A model generated the notes under the pieces. That model had not been told where the DNA came from. It saw only the letters and a list, made by a program, of their open reading frames with translations, and did not search any database. A stretch of 38,074 bases of DNA from Opitutales bacterium (GTDB taxonomy: Bacteria > Verrucomicrobiota > Verrucomicrobiia > Opitutales > Seribacteraceae): the NCBI GenBank assembly GCA_029252505.1, contig JAQXBH010000036.1:1-38074 (forward strand), given 5' to 3'. The position numbers were made by a program, and so were the translations under genes. Every line of letters begins with the position of its first letter. The first letter of the stretch is position 1. Shown here in pieces: positions 4,835 through 38,074 of the stretch.

Positions 4835-5932
4835 TTACCTTACCACCCGGGCTCCACCACCCTCCATTACTTTTTCCACATCCGCAACGGTCACCATAGA
4901 AGTATCTCCCGGTGTGGTCATCGCCAGGGCCCCATGGGCAGCTCCATAGTTAACTGCTTTTTCTCCGTCATGCCCCCGAAGGAATCCATAAATCAAACCG
5001 GATGCAAAACTGTCTCCACCCCCGACACGGTCCATAATCTCAAGGTCCGGACGATGAACCGCCTCATAAAAATTTCCGCCCTGCCAACAGATTGCACCCC
5101 AATCGTTCAGTGTGGCCGTTTTCACGGTACGCAGCGTGGTCGCAGTTGCCTTAAAATTGGGAAACTCAGACACTACCTGGGTGATCATTTTCTTAAAACT
5201 GTCCACTTCGATCGTGGAAATGGCTTCGTCCACACCCTCCACTTCAAACCCGAGACAGGCAGTAAAGTCTTCCTCATTTCCAATCATCACATCCACATTC
5301 CGGGCGATCGCACGATTCACCTCCTGGGCCTTTTCAATTCCACCGATCGATTTCCAAAGTGATGGGCGGTAGTTCAGATCATAAGAAACCACGGTTCCGT
5401 ATTTCTGGGCAGACTGCACCGCTTCCGCAGTTACTTCTGCAGTGGACTCAGATAACGCCGCAAATATTCCGCCCGTATGAAACCAGCGGACACCTTGGTT
5501 TCCAAAAATGTCGTCCCAGTCAATATCTCCGACTTTCAATTGAGAGGCTGCAGTCAGTCCACGGTCGGGAACCCCGACCGCTCCGCGAATACCAAAACCG
5601 CGCTCAGTAAAGTTTAGACCGTTTCTCACCTCCCGTCCGAGTCCGTCATAGGGAACCCAACGGACTAGGGAAGTGTCCACACCACCCTGTAAAATAAAAT
5701 CTTCAATTAATCGGCCAATCTCATTATCCGCAAATGCGGTGACCACTCCCGTGTCCATCCCAAAGCATCGTCGTAACCCACGGGCCACATTGTACTCCCC
5801 TCCCCCTTCCCAGGCGGAAAAACTTCGGGCCGTCCGTATCCTACCCTCCCCCGGATCGAGACGAAGCATAATTTCACCGAGCGATAATAAATCATATCGA
5901 CAGTCAGATTTTGGCTTAATTTCTAGGCTCAT
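4835..5932 (-). CDS. kdgK: PfkB-family sugar kinase, probable 2-keto-3-deoxygluconate kinase
   Basis: A 365-residue ribokinase-fold kinase. It begins with LSLGEIMLRLDPGEGRIRTA, typical of KDG kinases, and has the substrate-lid glycine pair WEGGGEYNVARGL near residue 43. Near residue 306 is the anion-hole motif RVGGGDSFASGLIYGFL, with the catalytic Asp in GGGDSFASG. KDG kinase phosphorylates 2-keto-3-deoxygluconate to KDPG, which an aldolase then splits to pyruvate and glyceraldehyde-3-phosphate. No KDPG aldolase or mannonate dehydratase gene is in the window, so the pathway must be completed elsewhere. It is flanked by dehydrogenase genes with gaps of 18 and 20 bases. Some sequence drift from classic KdgK leaves a related keto-sugar kinase possible. 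Confidence 0.82.
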   Translation of the reverse strand: MSLEIKPKSDCRYDLLSLGEIMLRLDPGEGRIRTARSFSAWEGGGEYNVARGLRRCFGMDTGVVTAFADNEIGRLIEDFILQGGVDTSLVRWVPYDGLGREVRNGLNFTERGFGIRGAVGVPDRGLTAASQLKVGDIDWDDIFGNQGVRWFHTGGIFAALSESTAEVTAEAVQSAQKYGTVVSYDLNYRPSLWKSIGGIEKAQEVNRAIARNVDVMIGNEEDFTACLGFEVEGVDEAISTIEVDSFKKMITQVVSEFPNFKATATTLRTVKTATLNDWGAICWQGGNFYEAVHRPDLEIMDRVGGGDSFASGLIYGFLRGHDGEKAVNYGAAHGALAMTTPGDTSMVTVADVEKVMEGGGARVVR

Positions 5933-14111: not shown

Positions 14112-15923
14112 GTGCATCAAACCGTAAAAAACCCCCTGACTATACTCAAGCAGACCTATGGCTATGGTCAGTTTCGTGGGCAGCAGTCTGAGATTATTGA
14201 TTATGTAAACCAAGGGGGAAATGCATTTGTGCTCATGCCCACCGGAAGCGGAAAATCACTTTGCTATCAGATTCCCGCCCTCTGCCGGGAAGGCGTAGGG
14301 GTAATTATTTCTCCTCTTATCGCCCTGATGCAGGATCAAATCACTGCACTTGAACAGCTTGGAATTTCAGCTGGGGCCATCAATTCGGGAATGCCTTACG
14401 GAGAGGTACTTCGGGTTAGGCAGAAACTGGAAAATAACCAGTTAGATCTATTATATGTTGCCCCCGAGCGTTTGGTCATGGAGGAATTCCTTGAATTACT
14501 AGATCATGTAAACATTGCACTCTTTGCGATTGATGAGGCTCATTGCGTATCCCAGTGGGGCCATGACTTCCGCCCGGATTACACCGCCCTTTCTCTGCTC
14601 GCCAAGCGGTTTAAGGGAATACCCCGGATTGCCCTTACCGCCACTGCAGATCAGGCAACGCGAAAGGACATTGTCGACCGACTGAAACTAGCGGAAGGAA
14701 AAACTTTTGTGGGTGGGTTTGACCGGCCAAACATTCACTACTCCATTTTAGAACGAAATAATCCGAGAAAACAGGTTTTTGATTTCATCAAAAACAATCA
14801 CTCGGGGGACAGCGGGATCATTTATTGTATTTCACGTAAAAAAGTCGAAGATATGGCCGAGTGGTTACAGGGAAAGAATATCAACGCACTGCCCTACCAT
14901 GCCGGACTGACTCCCCAGGTAAGGAGCCGAAACCAGGACCGTTTCCTGCGTGAGGACAATATTATTATTGTCGCGACTATCGCATTTGGTATGGGAATTG
15001 ATAAACCCGATGTTCGCTATGTCGCCCACATGAATATTCCCAAATCTATTGAAGCATATTATCAGGAAACCGGACGGGCAGGACGGGACGGGCTGCCTTC
15101 CAATGCCTATATGATTTATGGAATGGATGATGCGGCCATGCAGCGAAACTGGATCGAAAACTCGGAGGCCCCGGATATCCAGAAACGTATCGAGAACCAG
15201 AAACTCAACGCTCTGCTCGGGTTGTGCGAGGCGGCAATTTGCCGACGCCAAATTCTGCTTGAATATTTTGACGACCGCTCAGAACCCTGCGGAAATTGCG
15301 ATACCTGTGATACCAAACCGGAAACCTTCGACGGTACGATTGCTGCCCAAATGGCTCTTTCCGCAGTATTTAGGACGGGACAAAGATTTGGCATGGTCTA
15401 TGTGGTCGATGTATTGATGGGCAAGGTGGATGACCGTATCCAACGATTTGGACACGACAGGCAAAGCACATTTGGGATCGGGGATAAACTGAGCAGGAAC
15501 GAATGGCAAAATATTTTCCGTCAGTTGGTTTCGCAAAACCTTCTCATGGTCGACGTCAATGAACACAATGGAATCAAGATTACGGATAAGGGATTTCTTT
15601 TTTTAAAAAATAAAGAAAGTATTAACTTTCGTAAACTGACCGAAAAGCAAAAAGCCAGTAAAGGAAAATCCGGTAAAAAATCAAAAGTCGTGCTGGATAA
15701 TGACCTCGATCAGTCACTCTATGAAAACCTCAGAGCTGCCCGTCAGCAAATGGCCAAAAAGAGACGGGTTCCTGCTTATGTAATTTTCAACGATAAGACT
15801 TTAATTGAACTCGCAAAAACAAGACCCAAAAGCTTTGAGGAAATGCTCGATATCAGCGGGATAGGGGAAGCCAAGCTCAAGAAATTTGGCCAGACCCTAC
15901 TCGATGTCATTCTCGCAGCCTAA
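14112..15923 (+). CDS. recQ: ATP-dependent DNA helicase RecQ
   Basis: A 603-residue superfamily-2 helicase starting at GTG. Walker A is PTGSGKS (43-49), the DEAH box is IDEAHCVSQWGHDFRPDY (140-157) and the arginine-finger motif is ETGRAGRDGLPS. The zinc site is CRRQILLEYF followed by CGNCDTC. After the RQC winged helix, the last 65 residues are an HRDC domain (LRAARQQMAKKRRVPAYVIF ending in ISGIGEAKLKKFG). Length and order of domains match Escherichia coli RecQ. The protein unwinds DNA for recombination and replication-fork repair. The gene appears to stand alone. Its HRDC domain is a useful comparison for the separate HRDC protein of the retroelement at 37525. Confidence 0.96.
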   Translation: MHQTVKNPLTILKQTYGYGQFRGQQSEIIDYVNQGGNAFVLMPTGSGKSLCYQIPALCREGVGVIISPLIALMQDQITALEQLGISAGAINSGMPYGEVLRVRQKLENNQLDLLYVAPERLVMEEFLELLDHVNIALFAIDEAHCVSQWGHDFRPDYTALSLLAKRFKGIPRIALTATADQATRKDIVDRLKLAEGKTFVGGFDRPNIHYSILERNNPRKQVFDFIKNNHSGDSGIIYCISRKKVEDMAEWLQGKNINALPYHAGLTPQVRSRNQDRFLREDNIIIVATIAFGMGIDKPDVRYVAHMNIPKSIEAYYQETGRAGRDGLPSNAYMIYGMDDAAMQRNWIENSEAPDIQKRIENQKLNALLGLCEAAICRRQILLEYFDDRSEPCGNCDTCDTKPETFDGTIAAQMALSAVFRTGQRFGMVYVVDVLMGKVDDRIQRFGHDRQSTFGIGDKLSRNEWQNIFRQLVSQNLLMVDVNEHNGIKITDKGFLFLKNKESINFRKLTEKQKASKGKSGKKSKVVLDNDLDQSLYENLRAARQQMAKKRRVPAYVIFNDKTLIELAKTRPKSFEEMLDISGIGEAKLKKFGQTLLDVILAA

Positions 15924-27206: not shown

Positions 27207-30200
27207 ATGAAAAAGCCACTTATCACCCTCTCTTATCTTCTTTTCATTCTCCAGGTACAGGTATTATCCACTCAAGCCAACTCGATTGGGTATATCGAAA
27301 AATTCTCTCTTGCCGAAGACCGTACACAAGCACTCGCTGAACTGATTCCCGGAACACGAGATTATTACTACTTCCAAGCCCTGCATGCTCAGAACGAAGG
27401 TCGGCATGGAGAAGTCGAACAGTTACTCAAAACCTGGATCAAGAGATACGGGAACACCAGCCGGGTTCGCGAAATTCAAAACCGGGCCGCCCTGCTCAAC
27501 TACGACAAGAATCCGGAAAAATCACTCGCCTATTTAAAAGACCGCCTCGGACTGCGCTTTCAACACAGTCGAAAAATAGAAGGCAAGAAACCGACCCACC
27601 CCATCAAGCTGGATCCCAAGATCATGGACTACCAGACTTTTTACAACGATGCCCTCCGGGTCTATAAAAACCTGCAGGGATTTGAAGATCGTGGCCTGCG
27701 TACTATTAAACCAGGCAAGCTCAATGCGATCCAACTACGCGATTTCCTGGGCAGGCTTACTCATCCCGATATCCCCGACCTGCCCACCCTGATTATAAAG
27801 GATCTCAAGACAAAGGAAAGCCGGGGCTTTGGCTCGGTCAAGATTCACCGCAAGCTCACCAAGCAACAATTGGAAACTCTATTGGAACTGGATCCAAAAC
27901 TTCTGAATTCAAGCATATTTGTACAGGGATTTCTTTCCCGGCTAGCTCCTTCATCTGACCTCAATCCCGAAATGGAAGCAGATGAAAAATCTGCCTGGTT
28001 GAACCGACAGCTTCTCTTTTCCCGTACACTTTCTCCTGCTTTCAATTCCCTAAAAGCGAATATTCTGTTTAATCTACTCGGGCACAAACGTTCCCTCGGC
28101 ATTTGGGACCGGGAACTTTTTTTAGAATACCTGGCCCTCCCCAAACCTGTTTTCTATCTACGCCGGGAATGGACGCAGTCACAATTGAAAAAGCCCGCTG
28201 CCCGGCAGGTTAATTTAAATGAGGATTTTCGTTCATTTGGATGCTTTGGACCAATTGGACAGGACATCTCCCTGGTTAAAGCCATGCTTCTTCACTTTTT
28301 TGTCGGGGATGCAAACTTTGACTCCTTCTCCAAATACCTTACGGATGAGTTCCTCAAACCGATCTTTGCAGAAGCCAAGCTTACATCCGGAAAAGGGGAT
28401 GCTGAAAAATGGTATTCTATGCTATCCACTAATCAGCTTCAACAGATCAGGGAAAGAATTGACCTCTCCTTCGCACCGGACAACCCCAAGAGTTTTGCTC
28501 CCAGCGAAAAGGTGGACCTAAAAATACGGACTAAGAATGTGGACCGATTGATGGTCAAGGAATTTGAAATCAATGCTTTTAATTACTACCTCAAAAATGG
28601 AAAGGAAGTAAGTACGGACATTAAATTGGACGGGTTATCTGCCACCCGCGAACGCGTATTGGAAAGCAGCTTCGCCCCGGTTCGTAGAAATCTTCGTTCA
28701 ATCTCTTTTCCAAACCTGAAAAAAAGAGGAGTCTATGTGGTTGAATTGATTGGCAACGGAATTTCAAGCCGGGCCCTAATCCGTAAGGGAGCCCTGCGAT
28801 TGCTCGAAAAAATAGGCCCCGCCGGTCACGAATTTCGAATTCTCGATGAAAGTAACCGCCTTCGGGAACAGGCGAGTCTCTGGCTGAATGGAAAAGAGTA
28901 CAAACCAAAGCAGGGAGTCATCCTCATCCCCTTCAGCAATCAACCGGGTGGAAGGACAGTTATCCTGCGCGATGAAAACTTTGCCAGCCTCGCTCAGTTC
29001 AACCACCTTGGAGAAAATTATCGCCTGCAGGTCGGATTTCATATTGACCGCGAATCCCTTAGATCCGGAAAAAATGCCAAGCTACTGGTCCGCCCCACAC
29101 TCCGGTTAAATGGATACCCCACATCCCTGCAATTACTGGAACAGATCAAATTGGTGTTAATTACAAAGGATCACGACAACCAACCCAACCGGATGGAAAT
29201 CCCCATTGCAAAACTCGATTCCAATGAAGAATTTATCCATGAATTCCGGGTTCCTGAAAGGATGTATCAAATGGAAGCCTTCATTGAAGCCAAAGTGGAA
29301 AGCCTGAGCGGTGCGAAAAAGATTACCCTTAAGGATAGCATTTCACTCAGTATTAATTCCATCGATCAAGGCACACAGGTGGCCAGTGCTTTACTCAATC
29401 AATCCTCTGCAGGGTACACCCTGGAAATACGCGGTAAAAACGGAGAGTCATTTGCAGACTATCCGGTCTCTATAACCTGCAAACATGTCGACTTCCGTCG
29501 GACCCGCAGTCATATGCTCAAGACCGATAATAATGGAAGGATTGAACTGGGCTACCTACCCAATATTCAGTGGATTCAAACACAAGCTACCATTTCACAA
29601 AAATGGGAATTGGAAAAACACGCGGTCGGGCGATCCCTTCTTCCCGGACTGGTGCATACCAATGTTGGGGACAGTCTTTCCTTTCCTTTCCCCAGATTAA
29701 ATAACCGTTTCCCGGCAAATGAATTCTCACTATTTGAAACCAGATCGAATGCATATTTCCAAGATCACTCTGAAAAAATTAAAACACGCCCGGGACTAAT
29801 TGATATCCAGGCACTGCCTGCGGGTGATTTTGAAATGCACCACCATCCATCTTCCCGATCAGTGACCATCCGGGTAACCAAAGGCGAAAACCAATCCGGT
29901 TTTGCGGTCTCCAGACATCGTATTCTTGAGCGTTCCTACGGACAACCTCTCAGCATATCATCGGTCGACACCAAAGATGGAAAACTCCTTGTCCGCTTGA
30001 CCAATGCTCGGCCCAGTGCACGCCTGCATGTATTCGCCACTGCCTACACCCCTTCTTTCGATGCCCATGAAGGACTTCAACTCGACCCCGCCCCCACACC
30101 AACATCCCTGGATCTGGTCATTCCTGGCACGCTGTATGTGGAAGAACGCGACATTGGCGAGGAATACCGCTATGTTCTTGAAAGACAGGGTGCCGAGAAG

Positions 30201-33200
30201 TTCCCCGGCAACCTGCTACCCCGGCCCGGACTGATCCTTAATCCATGGAAAGTCCGCACCACGGAAACCGAAAAAAAAGATGCCCAGGCCGGCAACGAGT
30301 ATCAAAGCCTCTCCGATTCAGTGGACCTAAGGTCGGACGCAGAAATGAAAAGAAAAGCGATCAGCGGTGGACTGAACGATCCCATAAACTTTGATTTCCT
30401 CGCTCACGGCACCCTGATTAAAAGTAACTTACGCCCAGACAAAAACGGTGAAATCACCATCGAAATCCCGGCAGACCAGGGATATCGAATGCTCCGTCTG
30501 GTCGCATTGGACCCGGTGCAACAGGTCAGTCTCGATGTTCCTTTACGTGATTCAAAAACCCAGAAAAGAGAACTTCGAATGGTCACTGAACTGGATATTG
30601 AAAAAGCCCACGCCAAAAAGAAACAAGTCTCCAGGTTGGAAAAGGGTCAGGGTTTTAAAATTGAAGATTTCACCACTTCCCGCTTCCGGGCTATTGATTC
30701 CCTTAAAGATGCCTACGACCTCCTGCTCACTCTCAATGGAAATCCCGACTTTCGTGAATTCGAATTCCTACTGGACTGGCCAAGCCTTACGGATGAAGAA
30801 CGGTTGGAAAAATACCGGTCCTATGCCAGTCACGAACTGCATTTCTTTCTCTATCGAAAAGATCCGGATTTTTTCAATAAAGTCGTAAAGCCCTACCTCG
30901 CAAACAAGAAGGAACCCACTTTACTGGACGATTGGTTTCTCTCGCGTGATTTATCCCAATACATCGAACCGATACGATTTGATAAACTAAACGCGTTTGA
31001 AAAAGCGATCCTTTCCACCACCCGGTTTGCAGATGCCAAAGAAATAAGCCGTCACCTATCCGATCAGACCGACCTCCTCCCACCCGACCTCGATCTTTTC
31101 GATCGTCTTTTTGAAACTGCCCTGCAAAGTGCATCCCTGGAAACCCAGGGGGGAGAACTTGAAAAACTGGCTATGTCTAAATTAGGCTTCAAAAAACAAA
31201 AACAGGCCCTCGTGTTCAACCAAGCGGCACCTGTTCCCACATCCAGCGCTTCACCAGCTCCCCGAATGAGAAGTTTGGAAGGGTTTTCTGATGTCAAAAG
31301 CATGAGATTATTTTCCCTGGATGAAGCCAGGCCTGAGATGGCTATGATGGCAGAAAGCTCTTTCAACGCGGAGATAGCCATGGATCAAGAAAAGAAATCT
31401 GCTGAAATCATGAACCGAAAATCCAAAGCTGGTAAAAGCCGGGATAAAGGCTGGTATAAATATTCATCCGGATTTACTGGTGGCGGAACAGTCGACCCCT
31501 TCGCAGCAAACCTAGGCCTTCGTAAACAAGCACGTGGGTTTTACCGAAAAACAGGAAAAGTCATGGAATGGGCGGAAAGTAATTACTTCCGGGTTACCCA
31601 TGCCAGTGCCCGTAATCCCGGCCTTGTACCATTCCATTCCTTCTGGAGTGATTATGCCCGGCATTTGGCATCCGGTAGTAAAGGACCATTCATATCCGGA
31701 AACTTTGTTTACGCGACCAAGAATGCGACTGAAATGCTACTCGCACTTGCAGTACTCGATCTGCCCTTTGAGCCTGAAGAGACCAAAACCAAGATTGATG
31801 AGCGGGCCGTAACCATCGAACCAAAACAAGGACTTCTCCTTTTTCACGAACAACTCCTTCCTTCAGAAGAAGATAAAAAGAGCGAAGTCCTGATTAGCCA
31901 AAGATTCTACCGGCTCGATTCCCGCTACCGTTATGAAAAAAGCGAACGACTCGACAATTTTGTGGACAAAGAATTTCTCCCCGGAATTCCCTACGGTTCA
32001 ATTATTGTCCTGACTAACCCGACATCCTCCCGTCAAAAAATCCGCCTCCTCCTTCATCTGCCTAATGGATCCATGCCCTTGAACAAAACAAAGGCGGTAC
32101 GAAGTATTCCCCTCACTCTGGAAGCCTACTCAACCCAGACCTTTGAAAGTTCCTTTTATTTCCCGCTCAAAGGAAATTTTCAAATGTACCCCGCCCGTGC
32201 ATCCAGTGGTGGAAAATCAGTTGCTTCCTCACCCCTTACCCGGTTCGAAGTAGTGGAGGAACTGAGTAAAAAGGACAAAACCTCCTGGGCATGGATTTCT
32301 CAGAATGGAACGGATAAAGATGTGCTGGCTTACCTTAAGGCAAATAACCTCAACCGTACCGACCTGAATCAAATTGCCTTCCGCTTACGCAGGGAGAACG
32401 AAGGCGGTTCCGGGAAAATATTTTATGACCGTCTGCTCAAGCAACTGGAGACACGCTACCATTACCAATCCACTGCCTGGGCTTATTCATTTTACCATCA
32501 GGACACCGATCGTTTTCGGGAATTTCTGACCAAGTCCTCTTTTGCCAACCAATGTGGCTTATGGATTAAGAGTGCCCTGCTCAACCTCGATCCGATAGAC
32601 CGTGGAAAATACGAACAACTTGAATATGCTCCCCTCGTTCATGCCCGAGCCCATCGACTGGGCAAAGACAGGCGAATCCTGAACGACCGCCTGCGTACCC
32701 AGTACCTCAATCTACTCAATGTACTTGCTTACAAACCCGTACTCGAACAAGAGGATCATCTCATGCTCACCTACTACCTCCTCGCGCAGGACAGGATCGA
32801 GGAAGGACTGGCCCATTTTGAACAGGTCGAACGGGAACAAATTCGTGAAAAACTTCAGTATGATTACTTCGCGGTTCATGCGGCTTTTTACCGGCTTGAA
32901 CTCGAGAAAGCGGAAAAAATTGCCAAGCCGTACCGCAACTACTCGATCAACCGTTGGCAAAAATTATTTTCTGAAGCACTCGCACAAGTGGAAGAAGCTA
33001 AAGCTGCTCTCAATCCTGCGGTGGTCGACGATCAAGAACGGGATCAACAAATGGATCAACTCGCTGACACTGAGTCCACCTTCTCCTTCGAATTTATTGA
33101 TGACCAAATTCGACTCGATCATAAAAACACCGAGAATGCGCAAATCCGTTTCTATCCAATGGAAGTGGAACTACTCTTTTCCCGACAACCCTTCGCTAAA

Positions 33201-33647
33201 AATGACGCCGATCACTTCACCCTCGTCTCTCCCGACGGGGAGGAAACCATCGCCCTGAAAAAAGCGGATATGCAAACCACCTATCGATTACCCGAAAAGT
33301 ACCGCCGTAAAAATGTAATGATTGAAATTGAAGCCGGTGGAAAACGAAAAGCCCAGGCCTACTACGCAAATCGATTAAATACCGAACTCACCCCTGAATA
33401 CGGCCGGGTACGAATCCTCGATAAAATAACCGGCAAACCCCTGCCCAAAGTCTATGTTAAAACCTATGCCCGGATGAACAACGGGGATGTACGCTTTTAC
33501 AAAGACGGCTACACCGACCTGCGTGGAAAGTTTGAATACGCATCGCTTAATACCGATGACCTCGACCAAGTCCAACGCTTTGCCCTCCTCATCATCGACC
33601 CCGAAGCTGGTGCCCAGATCGAGGAAGCAGCACCACCCACACGATAA
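27207..33647 (+). CDS. Giant exported protein (2146 residues) with alpha-2-macroglobulin-like features
   Basis: One unbroken 6.4-kb gene. Residues 1-24 are a signal peptide (KKPLITLSYLLFILQVQVLS). The next 90 residues look like TPR-type helices (YYYFQALHAQNEGRHGEVEQLL). Many beta-sandwich-like segments follow, for example GVYVVELIGNGISSRALIRK near 515-535, and ENGRIELGYLP-like text near 775. A LAHGTLIKSNLRPDKNGEIT segment near 1070 resembles the macroglobulin core. The C-terminal 90 residues resemble a carboxypeptidase-regulatory-type beta domain (VRILDKITGKPLPKVYVKTY). I see no CGEQ thioester. It is preceded by 132 bases without a terminator and followed by repeats. Bacterial macroglobulins act as periplasmic protease traps, but this assignment is tentative. 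It may be a distinct family of large envelope proteins. Confidence 0.6.
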   Translation: MKKPLITLSYLLFILQVQVLSTQANSIGYIEKFSLAEDRTQALAELIPGTRDYYYFQALHAQNEGRHGEVEQLLKTWIKRYGNTSRVREIQNRAALLNYDKNPEKSLAYLKDRLGLRFQHSRKIEGKKPTHPIKLDPKIMDYQTFYNDALRVYKNLQGFEDRGLRTIKPGKLNAIQLRDFLGRLTHPDIPDLPTLIIKDLKTKESRGFGSVKIHRKLTKQQLETLLELDPKLLNSSIFVQGFLSRLAPSSDLNPEMEADEKSAWLNRQLLFSRTLSPAFNSLKANILFNLLGHKRSLGIWDRELFLEYLALPKPVFYLRREWTQSQLKKPAARQVNLNEDFRSFGCFGPIGQDISLVKAMLLHFFVGDANFDSFSKYLTDEFLKPIFAEAKLTSGKGDAEKWYSMLSTNQLQQIRERIDLSFAPDNPKSFAPSEKVDLKIRTKNVDRLMVKEFEINAFNYYLKNGKEVSTDIKLDGLSATRERVLESSFAPVRRNLRSISFPNLKKRGVYVVELIGNGISSRALIRKGALRLLEKIGPAGHEFRILDESNRLREQASLWLNGKEYKPKQGVILIPFSNQPGGRTVILRDENFASLAQFNHLGENYRLQVGFHIDRESLRSGKNAKLLVRPTLRLNGYPTSLQLLEQIKLVLITKDHDNQPNRMEIPIAKLDSNEEFIHEFRVPERMYQMEAFIEAKVESLSGAKKITLKDSISLSINSIDQGTQVASALLNQSSAGYTLEIRGKNGESFADYPVSITCKHVDFRRTRSHMLKTDNNGRIELGYLPNIQWIQTQATISQKWELEKHAVGRSLLPGLVHTNVGDSLSFPFPRLNNRFPANEFSLFETRSNAYFQDHSEKIKTRPGLIDIQALPAGDFEMHHHPSSRSVTIRVTKGENQSGFAVSRHRILERSYGQPLSISSVDTKDGKLLVRLTNARPSARLHVFATAYTPSFDAHEGLQLDPAPTPTSLDLVIPGTLYVEERDIGEEYRYVLERQGAEKFPGNLLPRPGLILNPWKVRTTETEKKDAQAGNEYQSLSDSVDLRSDAEMKRKAISGGLNDPINFDFLAHGTLIKSNLRPDKNGEITIEIPADQGYRMLRLVALDPVQQVSLDVPLRDSKTQKRELRMVTELDIEKAHAKKKQVSRLEKGQGFKIEDFTTSRFRAIDSLKDAYDLLLTLNGNPDFREFEFLLDWPSLTDEERLEKYRSYASHELHFFLYRKDPDFFNKVVKPYLANKKEPTLLDDWFLSRDLSQYIEPIRFDKLNAFEKAILSTTRFADAKEISRHLSDQTDLLPPDLDLFDRLFETALQSASLETQGGELEKLAMSKLGFKKQKQALVFNQAAPVPTSSASPAPRMRSLEGFSDVKSMRLFSLDEARPEMAMMAESSFNAEIAMDQEKKSAEIMNRKSKAGKSRDKGWYKYSSGFTGGGTVDPFAANLGLRKQARGFYRKTGKVMEWAESNYFRVTHASARNPGLVPFHSFWSDYARHLASGSKGPFISGNFVYATKNATEMLLALAVLDLPFEPEETKTKIDERAVTIEPKQGLLLFHEQLLPSEEDKKSEVLISQRFYRLDSRYRYEKSERLDNFVDKEFLPGIPYGSIIVLTNPTSSRQKIRLLLHLPNGSMPLNKTKAVRSIPLTLEAYSTQTFESSFYFPLKGNFQMYPARASSGGKSVASSPLTRFEVVEELSKKDKTSWAWISQNGTDKDVLAYLKANNLNRTDLNQIAFRLRRENEGGSGKIFYDRLLKQLETRYHYQSTAWAYSFYHQDTDRFREFLTKSSFANQCGLWIKSALLNLDPIDRGKYEQLEYAPLVHARAHRLGKDRRILNDRLRTQYLNLLNVLAYKPVLEQEDHLMLTYYLLAQDRIEEGLAHFEQVEREQIREKLQYDYFAVHAAFYRLELEKAEKIAKPYRNYSINRWQKLFSEALAQVEEAKAALNPAVVDDQERDQQMDQLADTESTFSFEFIDDQIRLDHKNTENAQIRFYPMEVELLFSRQPFAKNDADHFTLVSPDGEETIALKKADMQTTYRLPEKYRRKNVMIEIEAGGKRKAQAYYANRLNTELTPEYGRVRILDKITGKPLPKVYVKTYARMNNGDVRFYKDGYTDLRGKFEYASLNTDDLDQVQRFALLIIDPEAGAQIEEAAPPTR

Positions 33648-33652
33648 ATCAA

Positions 33653-33762
33653 TTTATTATTACGAGAAGGAAGCGATAGCTTCGAGGGAAGCGGACGACT
33701 TCTCTCTTCGCTTGCTGGTTCTCAGCGGATCGCCACGGGCCTTCAGCCTTCGCGATGACAAG
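33653..33762. repeat. Palindromic repeat element, copy 1 (degenerate left end)
   Basis: This copy keeps the right half of the family: GGATCGCCACGG at 33727-33738 and the terminal CGCGATGACAA at 33751-33761. Its left end (TTACGAGAAGG, 33660-33670) is a degraded form of the TCATTGCGAGG end. It starts immediately after the stop of the giant protein gene and could fold into a long imperfect hairpin on the RNA. Confidence 0.65.
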
Positions 33763-33803
33763 GTGTGAAGAAATAAGTGTGTGGTATCGTTATAACACGA
33801 TCT

Positions 33804-33870
33804 TTGTCATTGCGAGGAAAGAGCAAAGCGAGCGAAGCAGCAATCCATCGTGTCTCGAAGGGTGGCGAGT
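33804..33870. repeat. Palindromic repeat element, copy 2 (left half only)
   Basis: It begins TTGTCATTGCGAGGAAAGAG at 33804 and contains GCAGCAATCCATCGTGTCTC, matching copies 3 and 4, then diverges around 33870. The right half with GATCGCCACGG is missing, so the copy is truncated. Confidence 0.7.
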
Positions 33871-34377: not shown

Positions 34378-34508
34378 TTGTCATTGCGAGGAAAGAGCGA
34401 AGCGAGGGACGCGGCAATCCATCGTGTCGCGAGGGGACGCGAACGACTTGGCTCTCCGCTTCCCGGCTCACAGTGGATCGCCACGGTCTACGCCCTCGCG
34501 ATGACAAA
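34378..34508. repeat. Palindromic repeat element, copy 3 (complete)
   Basis: A complete 131-base copy. The ends are TTGTCATTGCGAGG (34378-34391) and CCTCGCGATGACAA (34494-34507), inverted with one mismatch. Nested inside is a second pair, GCAATCCA (34433-34440 region) against TGGATCGC (34473-34480 region), so the element can fold into one long imperfect stem. There is no open frame for a transposase, so it resembles a REP/MITE-type non-autonomous repeat. It lies just downstream of the symporter gene stop and may also serve as its transcription end. Confidence 0.78.
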
Positions 34509-34549
34509 AGACGGAAAGACTGACCGTCGTAGGAGATTCCTTCGCTTCA

Positions 34550-36029: not shown

Positions 36030-36163
36030 TATCATTGCAAGGAGGGAGCAAAAAAGTGACCGACGCGGCAATCCATCGTGTCTCGAGATGGGCGGACGGG
36101 TGACACGGTACGCTTACTGGTGCCCAGTGGATCGCCACGGCCTTACAGTCCTCGCGATGACAA
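36030..36163. repeat. Palindromic repeat element, copy 4 (complete)
   Basis: A copy of about 134 bases, starting ATCATTGCAAGGAGGGAGC and ending GTCCTCGCGATGACAA at 36148-36163. It shares GCGGCAATCCATCGTGTCTC and CAGTGGATCGCCACGG with copy 3, while the segment between them has diverged. It lies in the gap between the symporter gene and the retroelement template region. Confidence 0.75.
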
Positions 36164-36181: not shown

Positions 36182-36499
36182 TCACCCGTGGAGAAAGCTT
36201 TCGAAGCATATTGCTCTACTCACCTTCCCCACCGGTTTATCCCACAACGGGGTTTTGCGAAGCCAAATCATTTGTTGACGACGCGGGACCAAGACGCGTT
36301 TCCAAGCTTGGCTTTGTGAAAAATCCATTCCACTCAAACCAACGCGGAAGCCAACACGGAAGCCAAGGTTGTTGTTGCGGTTGCTGGGGGTGTTGTTGTT
36401 GCGCTTAGCTGAACGCAGGTTCGTTCCATCGTTGTTCCAGGAACCACCCCGTTTGACCCGATTCGAGCCCGATGCCCTCGTCTTGCGCCCTAAATACAT
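36182..36499 (-). other. DGR template repeat (TR) region, with in-frame lectin-like open frame
   Basis: An open frame starts at ATG (36497-36499), 15 bases after the reverse transcriptase stop. It reads SNRVKRGGSWNNDGTNLRSA, then KRNNNTPSNRNNNLGFRV. This is the C-terminal motif of FGE-sulfatase/C-type-lectin DGR target proteins, but with its variable positions still all Asn. From 36439 down to 36368 there are ten AAC codons, the form expected of an unmutated template: A changes in AAC never create stops. The core TR probably spans about 36330-36480. It has no N-terminal domain, so it is not itself a displayed protein. The exact ends cannot be set without the matching variable repeat. A degraded target gene is the alternative. 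Confidence 0.85.
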
Positions 36500-36516
36500 C
36501 AATCGTTAAACATTCT

Positions 36517-37494
36517 TTAAATACCTCCCTGTAAGTTGATCAGGTTGGACAGGCTGCCAAATCCCAAAAGGCACTGGTGTCTCTGTTGAAGTTCCAGTTC
36601 ATCAATCATTCCCTCATTGGCCTGCCACTCAAGGCTACGAATTTTTCGGAAAAACCGTACCCTTGCCCGCCGATCCGGTTCCATCCGAAAAGGATGAACT
36701 GTATGACCTAAAAAGGGTACACCGTCCCGCACTCTTTCGGGGTGGGCCCGTTTCTTTAATTGTAACCCAATTCCATTCAATTCTTTTTCCACCCCCTCCC
36801 GTGCTTTCATTAAGTCCTCTCTTTCATGACCCCACAATATAAAGTCGTCCATATAACGGAGGTATCCGGGTACCCCCAAAACTTGCTTACAAGTCCGGTC
36901 AAGTTGTGAAAGATAATGATTCGAAAAGAACTGGGAAGCCAGACTTCCGATGGGCAAACCCCGTCCTCGCTCCGTTTCGTAACCACCAATAATTTGAGCA
37001 AACAACTTGAGCAAATGAGTATCCTTGAACACCCGTCCGAGCATTTCAAGTAATTGTGAATGCACCACCGAATCAAAGTACCTCCGCACATCCAGTTTTA
37101 AATACCACTTATACCGGCGGGCAAAAACCTGGGCTCTTTTCAACGCTCCATGGGTACCCTTTCCCTTCCTGCAGGCAAAGCAGTCATCAACCAGTTTCTT
37201 TTCCATTATGGGTTCACAAAGATTGAATATTGCGTGCTGAGCGACCCGTTCCCGAAAGGCAGGAGCATGGATTAATCGAGTCTTTGGGTCACGAACCTCA
37301 AAACTATGGTATTCCCCAAATGGGAAACTTCCATCCGCCAATCCGTCACCCAAAAATCTTAAATTCTCATCCAGGTTCTCACGGTACACATCGGCTTCAT
37401 GTTTATCGCTTAATCCCCGCTCGGCCCGGCAAAATGCGAGAAGCAAATTATCCCATTCCACAATTCCGGGCATCAGGTGACCCACTCGTTTCAT
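36517..37494 (-). CDS. DGR-type reverse transcriptase
   Basis: A 325-residue reverse transcriptase. Motif A is YLKLDVRRYFDSV with Asp135 and the second conserved Asp141. The catalytic YMDD is at 215-218 (GYLRYMDDFILWGHE). The motif after the finger is LPIGSLASQFFSNHYLSQLD, giving GxxxSQ at 183-188 in place of the QGxxxSP of group-II intron and retron enzymes; this is the hallmark of diversity-generating retroelements. The thumb and C-terminal part (VPFLGHTVHPFRM) are present. The enzyme copies the template RNA with errors at adenines, and the cDNA replaces the variable repeat. It lies 30 bases after the HRDC accessory gene and immediately before the template repeat. Confidence 0.95.
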   Translation of the reverse strand: MKRVGHLMPGIVEWDNLLLAFCRAERGLSDKHEADVYRENLDENLRFLGDGLADGSFPFGEYHSFEVRDPKTRLIHAPAFRERVAQHAIFNLCEPIMEKKLVDDCFACRKGKGTHGALKRAQVFARRYKWYLKLDVRRYFDSVVHSQLLEMLGRVFKDTHLLKLFAQIIGGYETERGRGLPIGSLASQFFSNHYLSQLDRTCKQVLGVPGYLRYMDDFILWGHEREDLMKAREGVEKELNGIGLQLKKRAHPERVRDGVPFLGHTVHPFRMEPDRRARVRFFRKIRSLEWQANEGMIDELELQQRHQCLLGFGSLSNLINLQGGI

Positions 37495-37524
37495 CCGCCT
37501 TAATCCACTAAGCTCAGCCTGTGT

Positions 37525-38016
37525 TCAAGGCTTGGCATCCGATGTTCTTATCTTTGCCTCGTCCTTGAGGACTTTCAAAAATTGCCCCCCATACTTTCCT
37601 ACCCTGTTTTCCCCCACCCCTTCAATTTTAGATAATGCATTGGCAGAAACAGGAAGAATCTTGGCGATCTCAGCCAACTGTTCGTTGGTAAAGATCGCGT
37701 ACGCCGGTACCTGCTCTGCTTTCGCCAATTCCTTACGGACTTCTCGGAGTCGGGCAAAAGTAACAAAGTCTGCAGGGGATAAAATTTCCTTGTAATCAAC
37801 CAATGCTTTGGCCCGTTTTGGTGTATCCTTGGTAAGTGCACCATCGCGCCAGCGAACGCTAAAACACCAATGGGATCCCCCCTCACAATGTGCGAACTCC
37901 TGTCGAATATCGACCACTGCTTTGCTCTCTAAAAATGAATTTAATTCCTCCTCTAAAAAAGTGTCCCCGCAAGCGGGGATTTGGAAAAAATTATATTTGA
38001 AGGATATTTTTCCCAC
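37525..38016 (-). CDS. HRDC-domain DGR accessory protein
   Basis: A 163-residue protein starting at GTG. The N-terminal part (SFKYNFFQIPACGDTFLEEE, then LNSFLESKAVVDIRQEF) is a small alpha/beta domain that recurs next to DGR reverse transcriptases. A linker with VDYKEILSPADFVTF leads to an HRDC domain at about 82-152: LREVRKELAKAEQVPAYAIF and IEGVGENRVGKYG. HRDC domains bind nucleic acids. In the DGRs that lack Avd, HRDC proteins of this type are the recognised alternative accessory gene, thought to assist reverse transcription or homing. It is co-oriented with the reverse transcriptase, 30 bases upstream. A perfect GC-rich inverted repeat lies inside codons 13-18 (37964-37979). Confidence 0.85.
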   Translation of the reverse strand: MGKISFKYNFFQIPACGDTFLEEELNSFLESKAVVDIRQEFAHCEGGSHWCFSVRWRDGALTKDTPKRAKALVDYKEILSPADFVTFARLREVRKELAKAEQVPAYAIFTNEQLAEIAKILPVSANALSKIEGVGENRVGKYGGQFLKVLKDEAKIRTSDAKP

Positions 38017-38074
38017 TTCTCAATCGAAATAATTTTTAATTCAGGATGCGGACTTACGCCGGGGCTCCGCGTGC

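Follow-up and report, generated by a model that had tools for sequence, protein, structure and literature searches.

In diversity-generating retroelements (DGRs), the RNA of a template repeat (TR) is reverse transcribed inaccurately at its adenines, and a variable repeat (VR) is then replaced by the cDNA. The DGR of Bordetella phage BPP-1 uses the accessory protein Avd, its TR lying between avd and the reverse transcriptase (RT) gene (PMC12875486), and that of T. denticola has an HRDC accessory protein and the target TvpA (PMC4891356; PDB 2y3c). Tandem VRs in FGE domains of a single open reading frame have been reported in Marichromatium, where the question of an artefact was left open (PMC3521204), and VRs remote from their core genes are also published (PMC3521204; PMC10907252). 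DGR surveys in the literature also list Verrucomicrobia.

The locus described here lies in a window of 38,074 bp, which is the entire contig C238 of an Opitutales metagenome-assembled genome (MAG) of 291 contigs, 87% complete. It is almost certainly a bacterial chromosomal DGR with an HRDC accessory protein rather than Avd. As in T. denticola, the HRDC gene adjoins the RT gene and there are several targets, some of them far from the core; in T. denticola, however, the accessory gene is placed between the TR and the RT gene, with which it overlaps, whereas the type described here is arranged target-HRDC-RT-TR without overlap, and the host phylum is different. A first-pass annotation of the sequence had proposed that the order accessory-RT-TR fits known DGRs lacking Avd. 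BPP-1 and BMP-1 share with our locus the RT family, an IMH-like 3' end and, probably, adenine-specific rewriting from TR to VR, but they have Avd and a TR between avd and RT, whereas the present system is chromosomal, with an HRDC accessory and FGE-type targets. Here, as in Marichromatium (PMC3521204) and Thiohalocapsa PB-PSB1 (PMC10907252), one polypeptide can hold several VR domains, and a single TR apparently serves VRs at distant sites. The PB-PSB1 targets are conflict-system proteins, whereas those considered here are surface-type proteins with signal peptide, Ig and FGE domains in an Opitutales host, and, in comparison with both systems, one relative (G016) has ten VRs matching a single TR. 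As remote VRs, tandem VRs in FGE domains, targets of the FGE type and accessory proteins of the HRDC type have all been published, the locus is a further member of a known DGR type. With it, marine Opitutales gain a well-supported DGR of the HRDC type whose targets are tandem lectins with several VRs.

The HRDC gene and the reverse transcriptase

The first-pass annotation had described a minus-strand trio of HRDC accessory gene, RT and TR, and all three parts are confirmed. They stand at the right end of C238, transcribed in this order, with 30 bp between the HRDC and RT genes and 40 bp between the RT stop codon and the TR. The order given by the annotation is therefore seen at the locus, but is refined by the relatives, in which a target gene precedes the trio; here, its place would be just beyond the contig end. 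The features are:

37525..38016, minus strand: HRDC-domain DGR accessory gene (163 aa, GTG start)
36517..37494, minus strand: DGR reverse transcriptase (325 aa; GSLASQ, RYMDD)
36346..36476 (about), minus strand: template repeat of 131 bp, aligned to the VRs of G010, of G016 and genus-wide
36330..36346, minus strand: second copy of the IMH-like end (TTGGCTTCCGTG/TTGGCTTCCGCG duplicated)
36200..36330, minus strand: conserved non-coding stretch 3' of the TR, a candidate RT-binding/priming spacer RNA
38017..38074, minus strand: start of the target-HRDC intergenic region, cut by the contig end; the VR-bearing target gene is missing

The RT matches Pfam RVT_1 (E 5e-18). The motifs on which its first assignment was based, GxxxSQ and YMDD, are present, and GxxxSQ is found in all the DGR sequences compared, SP/YADD being found in the retrons and in nearly all the group II-type sequences. 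In a tree of 44 RTs, from which that of T. denticola was left out, the window RT shares the DGR clade (support 100/99) with BMP-1, VHML, ANMV-1 and an Avd-type cyanobacterial DGR, and retrons and group II introns lie outside it; the tree suggested as a check by the annotation thus agrees with it. In a PDB search, the top match is the reverse transcriptase of 8ub7 (2e-32), which we take to be the BPP-1 DGR enzyme, a group II RT being matched at 5e-16. Group II and DRT models do occur, with modest scores, among the profile-library matches, as would be expected if the RT were instead a retron, group II intron or DRT defence enzyme and the repeat a duplicated fragment of an FGE gene. As tree, motifs and best PDB match all point to a DGR, and as the TR/VR differences are adenine-specific (see below), this explanation is exceedingly improbable, and the RT tree together with the TR/VR pattern refutes it.

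A search of viral contigs for close relatives of this DGR RT returned none. Both RT and HRDC genes are intact and under purifying selection, with dN/dS values of 0.11-0.16 for the RT against same-genus relatives and of 0.15 for the HRDC gene against G010. Other RTs are encoded in the genome (G000): two of them, at C227:3223-3828 (L018) and C99:5727-6332 (L020), have UG17 as best PADLOC class (2e-40 and 6e-40) and form a long separate branch of the RT tree, and a retron-type RT with GAPTSP and RYADD is found at C213:10220-11017 (L115).

The accessory protein was correctly recognized as HRDC-type: its residues 87-150 match Pfam HRDC (E 7e-20), the predicted fold of this C-terminal part matches the HRDC domain of E. 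coli RecQ (1wud; Z 13.1), and homologues adjoin DGR RTs at four other loci (L069, L070, L040 and L041), in addition to an orthologue, 93% identical, in G010. The N-terminal half is predicted to fold as a small alpha/beta domain, for which the fold search gave only weak S6-like/dodecin-like matches (Z about 5) and no family that could be named. Presumably, the HRDC protein takes the place of Avd; a literature search for functional work on HRDC accessories in DGRs found none, and the protein is a testable candidate replacement. The window also holds, at 14112-15923, a RecQ helicase gene with an HRDC domain of its own; the HRDC gene of the DGR lies 22 kb away from it.

As to the surroundings, a symporter gene adjoins the cassette in the window and lies about 32 kb from it in G010. 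A dispersed repeat pair (TTGTCATTGCGAGGA...GCAATCCATCG and GTGGCGATCCAC...) is present in three copies (36032-36163, 34378-34509 and 33709-33868), which flank the symporter and the 3' side of the cassette. Further away, at 27207-33647, an open reading frame of 2146 aa has no Pfam match at E 0.1.

The template repeat and its pairing with variable repeats

The TR contains about 34 adenines, many of them in AAC codons, and encodes an AAC-rich FGE-type tail (RVKRGGSWNNDGTNLRSAKRNNNTPSNRNNNLGFRV; Pfam FGE-sulfatase, E 8e-6), although the open reading frame enclosing it (36182-36502) is probably not a gene. Its 3' end, GGCTTCCGTGTTGG, is the IMH-like end common to TR and VRs; the IMH-like 12-mer TTGGCTTCCGTG is duplicated (36330-36360) in the TRs of the window and of G010, but not in that of G016. 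The stretch that follows is about 90% conserved with G010, outside any coding sequence. Its fold stability is not unusual (z -0.66), and an Rfam search at the locus gave no match.

As no clean VR is found in the contig or in the genome, the identification of this repeat as a TR, placed by the annotation at 36330-36480, is drawn from relatives, whose VRs pair with it, and from concordant cousin loci in other phyla. The cassette is also present in two genomes of the same genus, G010 (isolate AH-709-J17, locus L067) and G016, with RTs 94% identical, and in both the gene order is target(VR)-HRDC-RT-TR. Over the four VRs of G010, differences from the TR affect 74 of 128 adenine sites and 5 of 396 other sites (p 3e-48); over the ten VRs of G016, they affect 129/304 and 17/950, respectively (p 2e-70). 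In the G010 target next to the HRDC gene, 20 of 22 mismatches in one VR and 16 of 17 in the other fall at TR adenines. All three substitutions of TR adenines are seen. VRs from across the genus show the same adenine pattern when compared with the window TR itself (e.g., 23/34 adenines vs 4/97 other sites). Outside the genus, Anammoxibacter, Lewinellaceae and two cousins of the order Opitutales also have the layout VR-HRDC-RT-TR, adenines accounting for 85-91% of the mismatches; the layout thus extends to Planctomycetota and Bacteroidota MAGs.

It could be argued that no retrohoming is involved, and that the likeness between VRs and TR, with its bias towards adenines, arises as a by-product where conserved FGE motifs (GGSW, LRSA, GFRV) border variable Asn-rich loops, as the older FGE copies of the window's own genome are also adenine-biased, if more weakly (18/33 vs 15/93 for C283). 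In the relatives, however, non-adenine sites are near-identical between TR and VRs (5/396), third codon positions included; since synonymous positions are conserved as well, protein-level conservation is not the cause. Such a by-product is very improbable as a general explanation: it is refuted for G010 and G016, and not for the copies on C283, C223 and C95.

The VRs of G016 (L083, L085, L087 and L089-L093) also contain 27 single-base gaps, of which 26 fall at TR adenines and one elsewhere. Skipping of adenines by the RT was considered and set aside, because the G016 contigs carry frameshifts elsewhere, including in the HRDC gene, and because no other genome of the genus has such gaps. The likelier origin is a failure of the consensus at hypervariable positions in an indel-prone assembly.

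The variable repeat of the window's own genome

The annotation had proposed to look elsewhere in the genome for a near-identical repeat differing at template adenines. Such repeats are found in G010 and G016, but no clean cognate VR is present in the window contig or in the binned genome, where the TR matches nothing but FGE domains that differ from it at many sites other than adenines. The FGE/VR-like copies on C283, C223 and C95 are adenine-biased but have 15-22 non-adenine differences each; they are therefore older, or no longer served by the window TR.

These diverged copies would fit a degenerate, inactive remnant, in which RT, HRDC gene and TR persist, the target has been lost and the remaining FGE domains are no longer rewritten. 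Against this stand the purifying selection on intact RT and HRDC genes, a TR 97% identical to that of G010, and the state of the assembly at the place where a target is expected. Upstream of the HRDC gene, where the target is expected, C238 continues for just 58 bp, and its last positions (37995-38074) are 93% identical to 5421-5500 of the G010 locus, whose upstream neighbour is a VR target. A homologous target gene, encoding an apparent signal peptide followed by Ig-like, FGE, surface Ig-like and FGE domains, is present on contig C121 of the same assembly, which ends about 48 bp before the expected start of the VR. The two contigs do not overlap; by analogy with the relatives, they are probably adjacent with the VR in the gap, and, as C121 stops so close to the VR, the missing stretch would be about 390 bp.

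Contig breakage at such positions is systematic: among 29 contigs, or regions of contigs, that carry a VR in this genus, 14 end within 400 bp of it, against 1.3 expected. The cognate VR is thus most likely absent from the MAG because contigs break at VRs, and a remnant is improbable. As VRs break metagenome assemblies, MAG-based surveys miss targets, and a DGR can look target-less.

Target proteins and proposed rewriting

Lectin-fold targets, expected by the first-pass annotation, are found in the relatives, whereas the homologous gene of the window's own genome is cut before its VR. The target domains are of the FGE-sulfatase family, each VR forming the 3' end of an FGE/C-type-lectin domain, and the closest PDB match to such a domain is T. 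denticola variable protein 1 (TvpA; 2e-23). An AlphaFold model of the target domain, with two sequences in the alignment, reached a pLDDT of 31. The G010 target directly upstream of the HRDC gene is 1020 aa long, with two FGE domains carrying one VR each, and two VR domains per chain are frequent. As tandem VR domains recur in several genomes with adenine-specific patterns, they are supported as real. The targets are multi-domain proteins that are probably secreted and may be exposed at the surface.

Under the mechanism that we propose, the TR-containing RNA would be reverse transcribed by the RT, with the help of the HRDC protein, template adenines being misread. The cDNA would then take the place of the corresponding 131-bp VR, with which the FGE/C-type-lectin domains end at their 3' side, so that the ligand-binding face of the target would be rewritten and its scaffold kept. 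One TR could serve several VRs, those of the target next to the HRDC gene, on its upstream side, in cis and those of other loci probably in trans.

VRs of this TR type are present in 20 of the 27 genomes of the genus, and the RT was found in three. A tentative and rather unlikely reading is that a single conserved TR acts on a family of tandem lectins spread over the genome, and that the RT/TR cassette is mobile or shared among genomes that retain their sets of VRs and diversify them in trans. Assembly and binning losses may explain much of the imbalance, to which loss of the RT may also contribute. The hairpin search used found none after terminal VRs; many internal VRs are followed, 22-26 bp downstream, by a hairpin of 7-8 bp.
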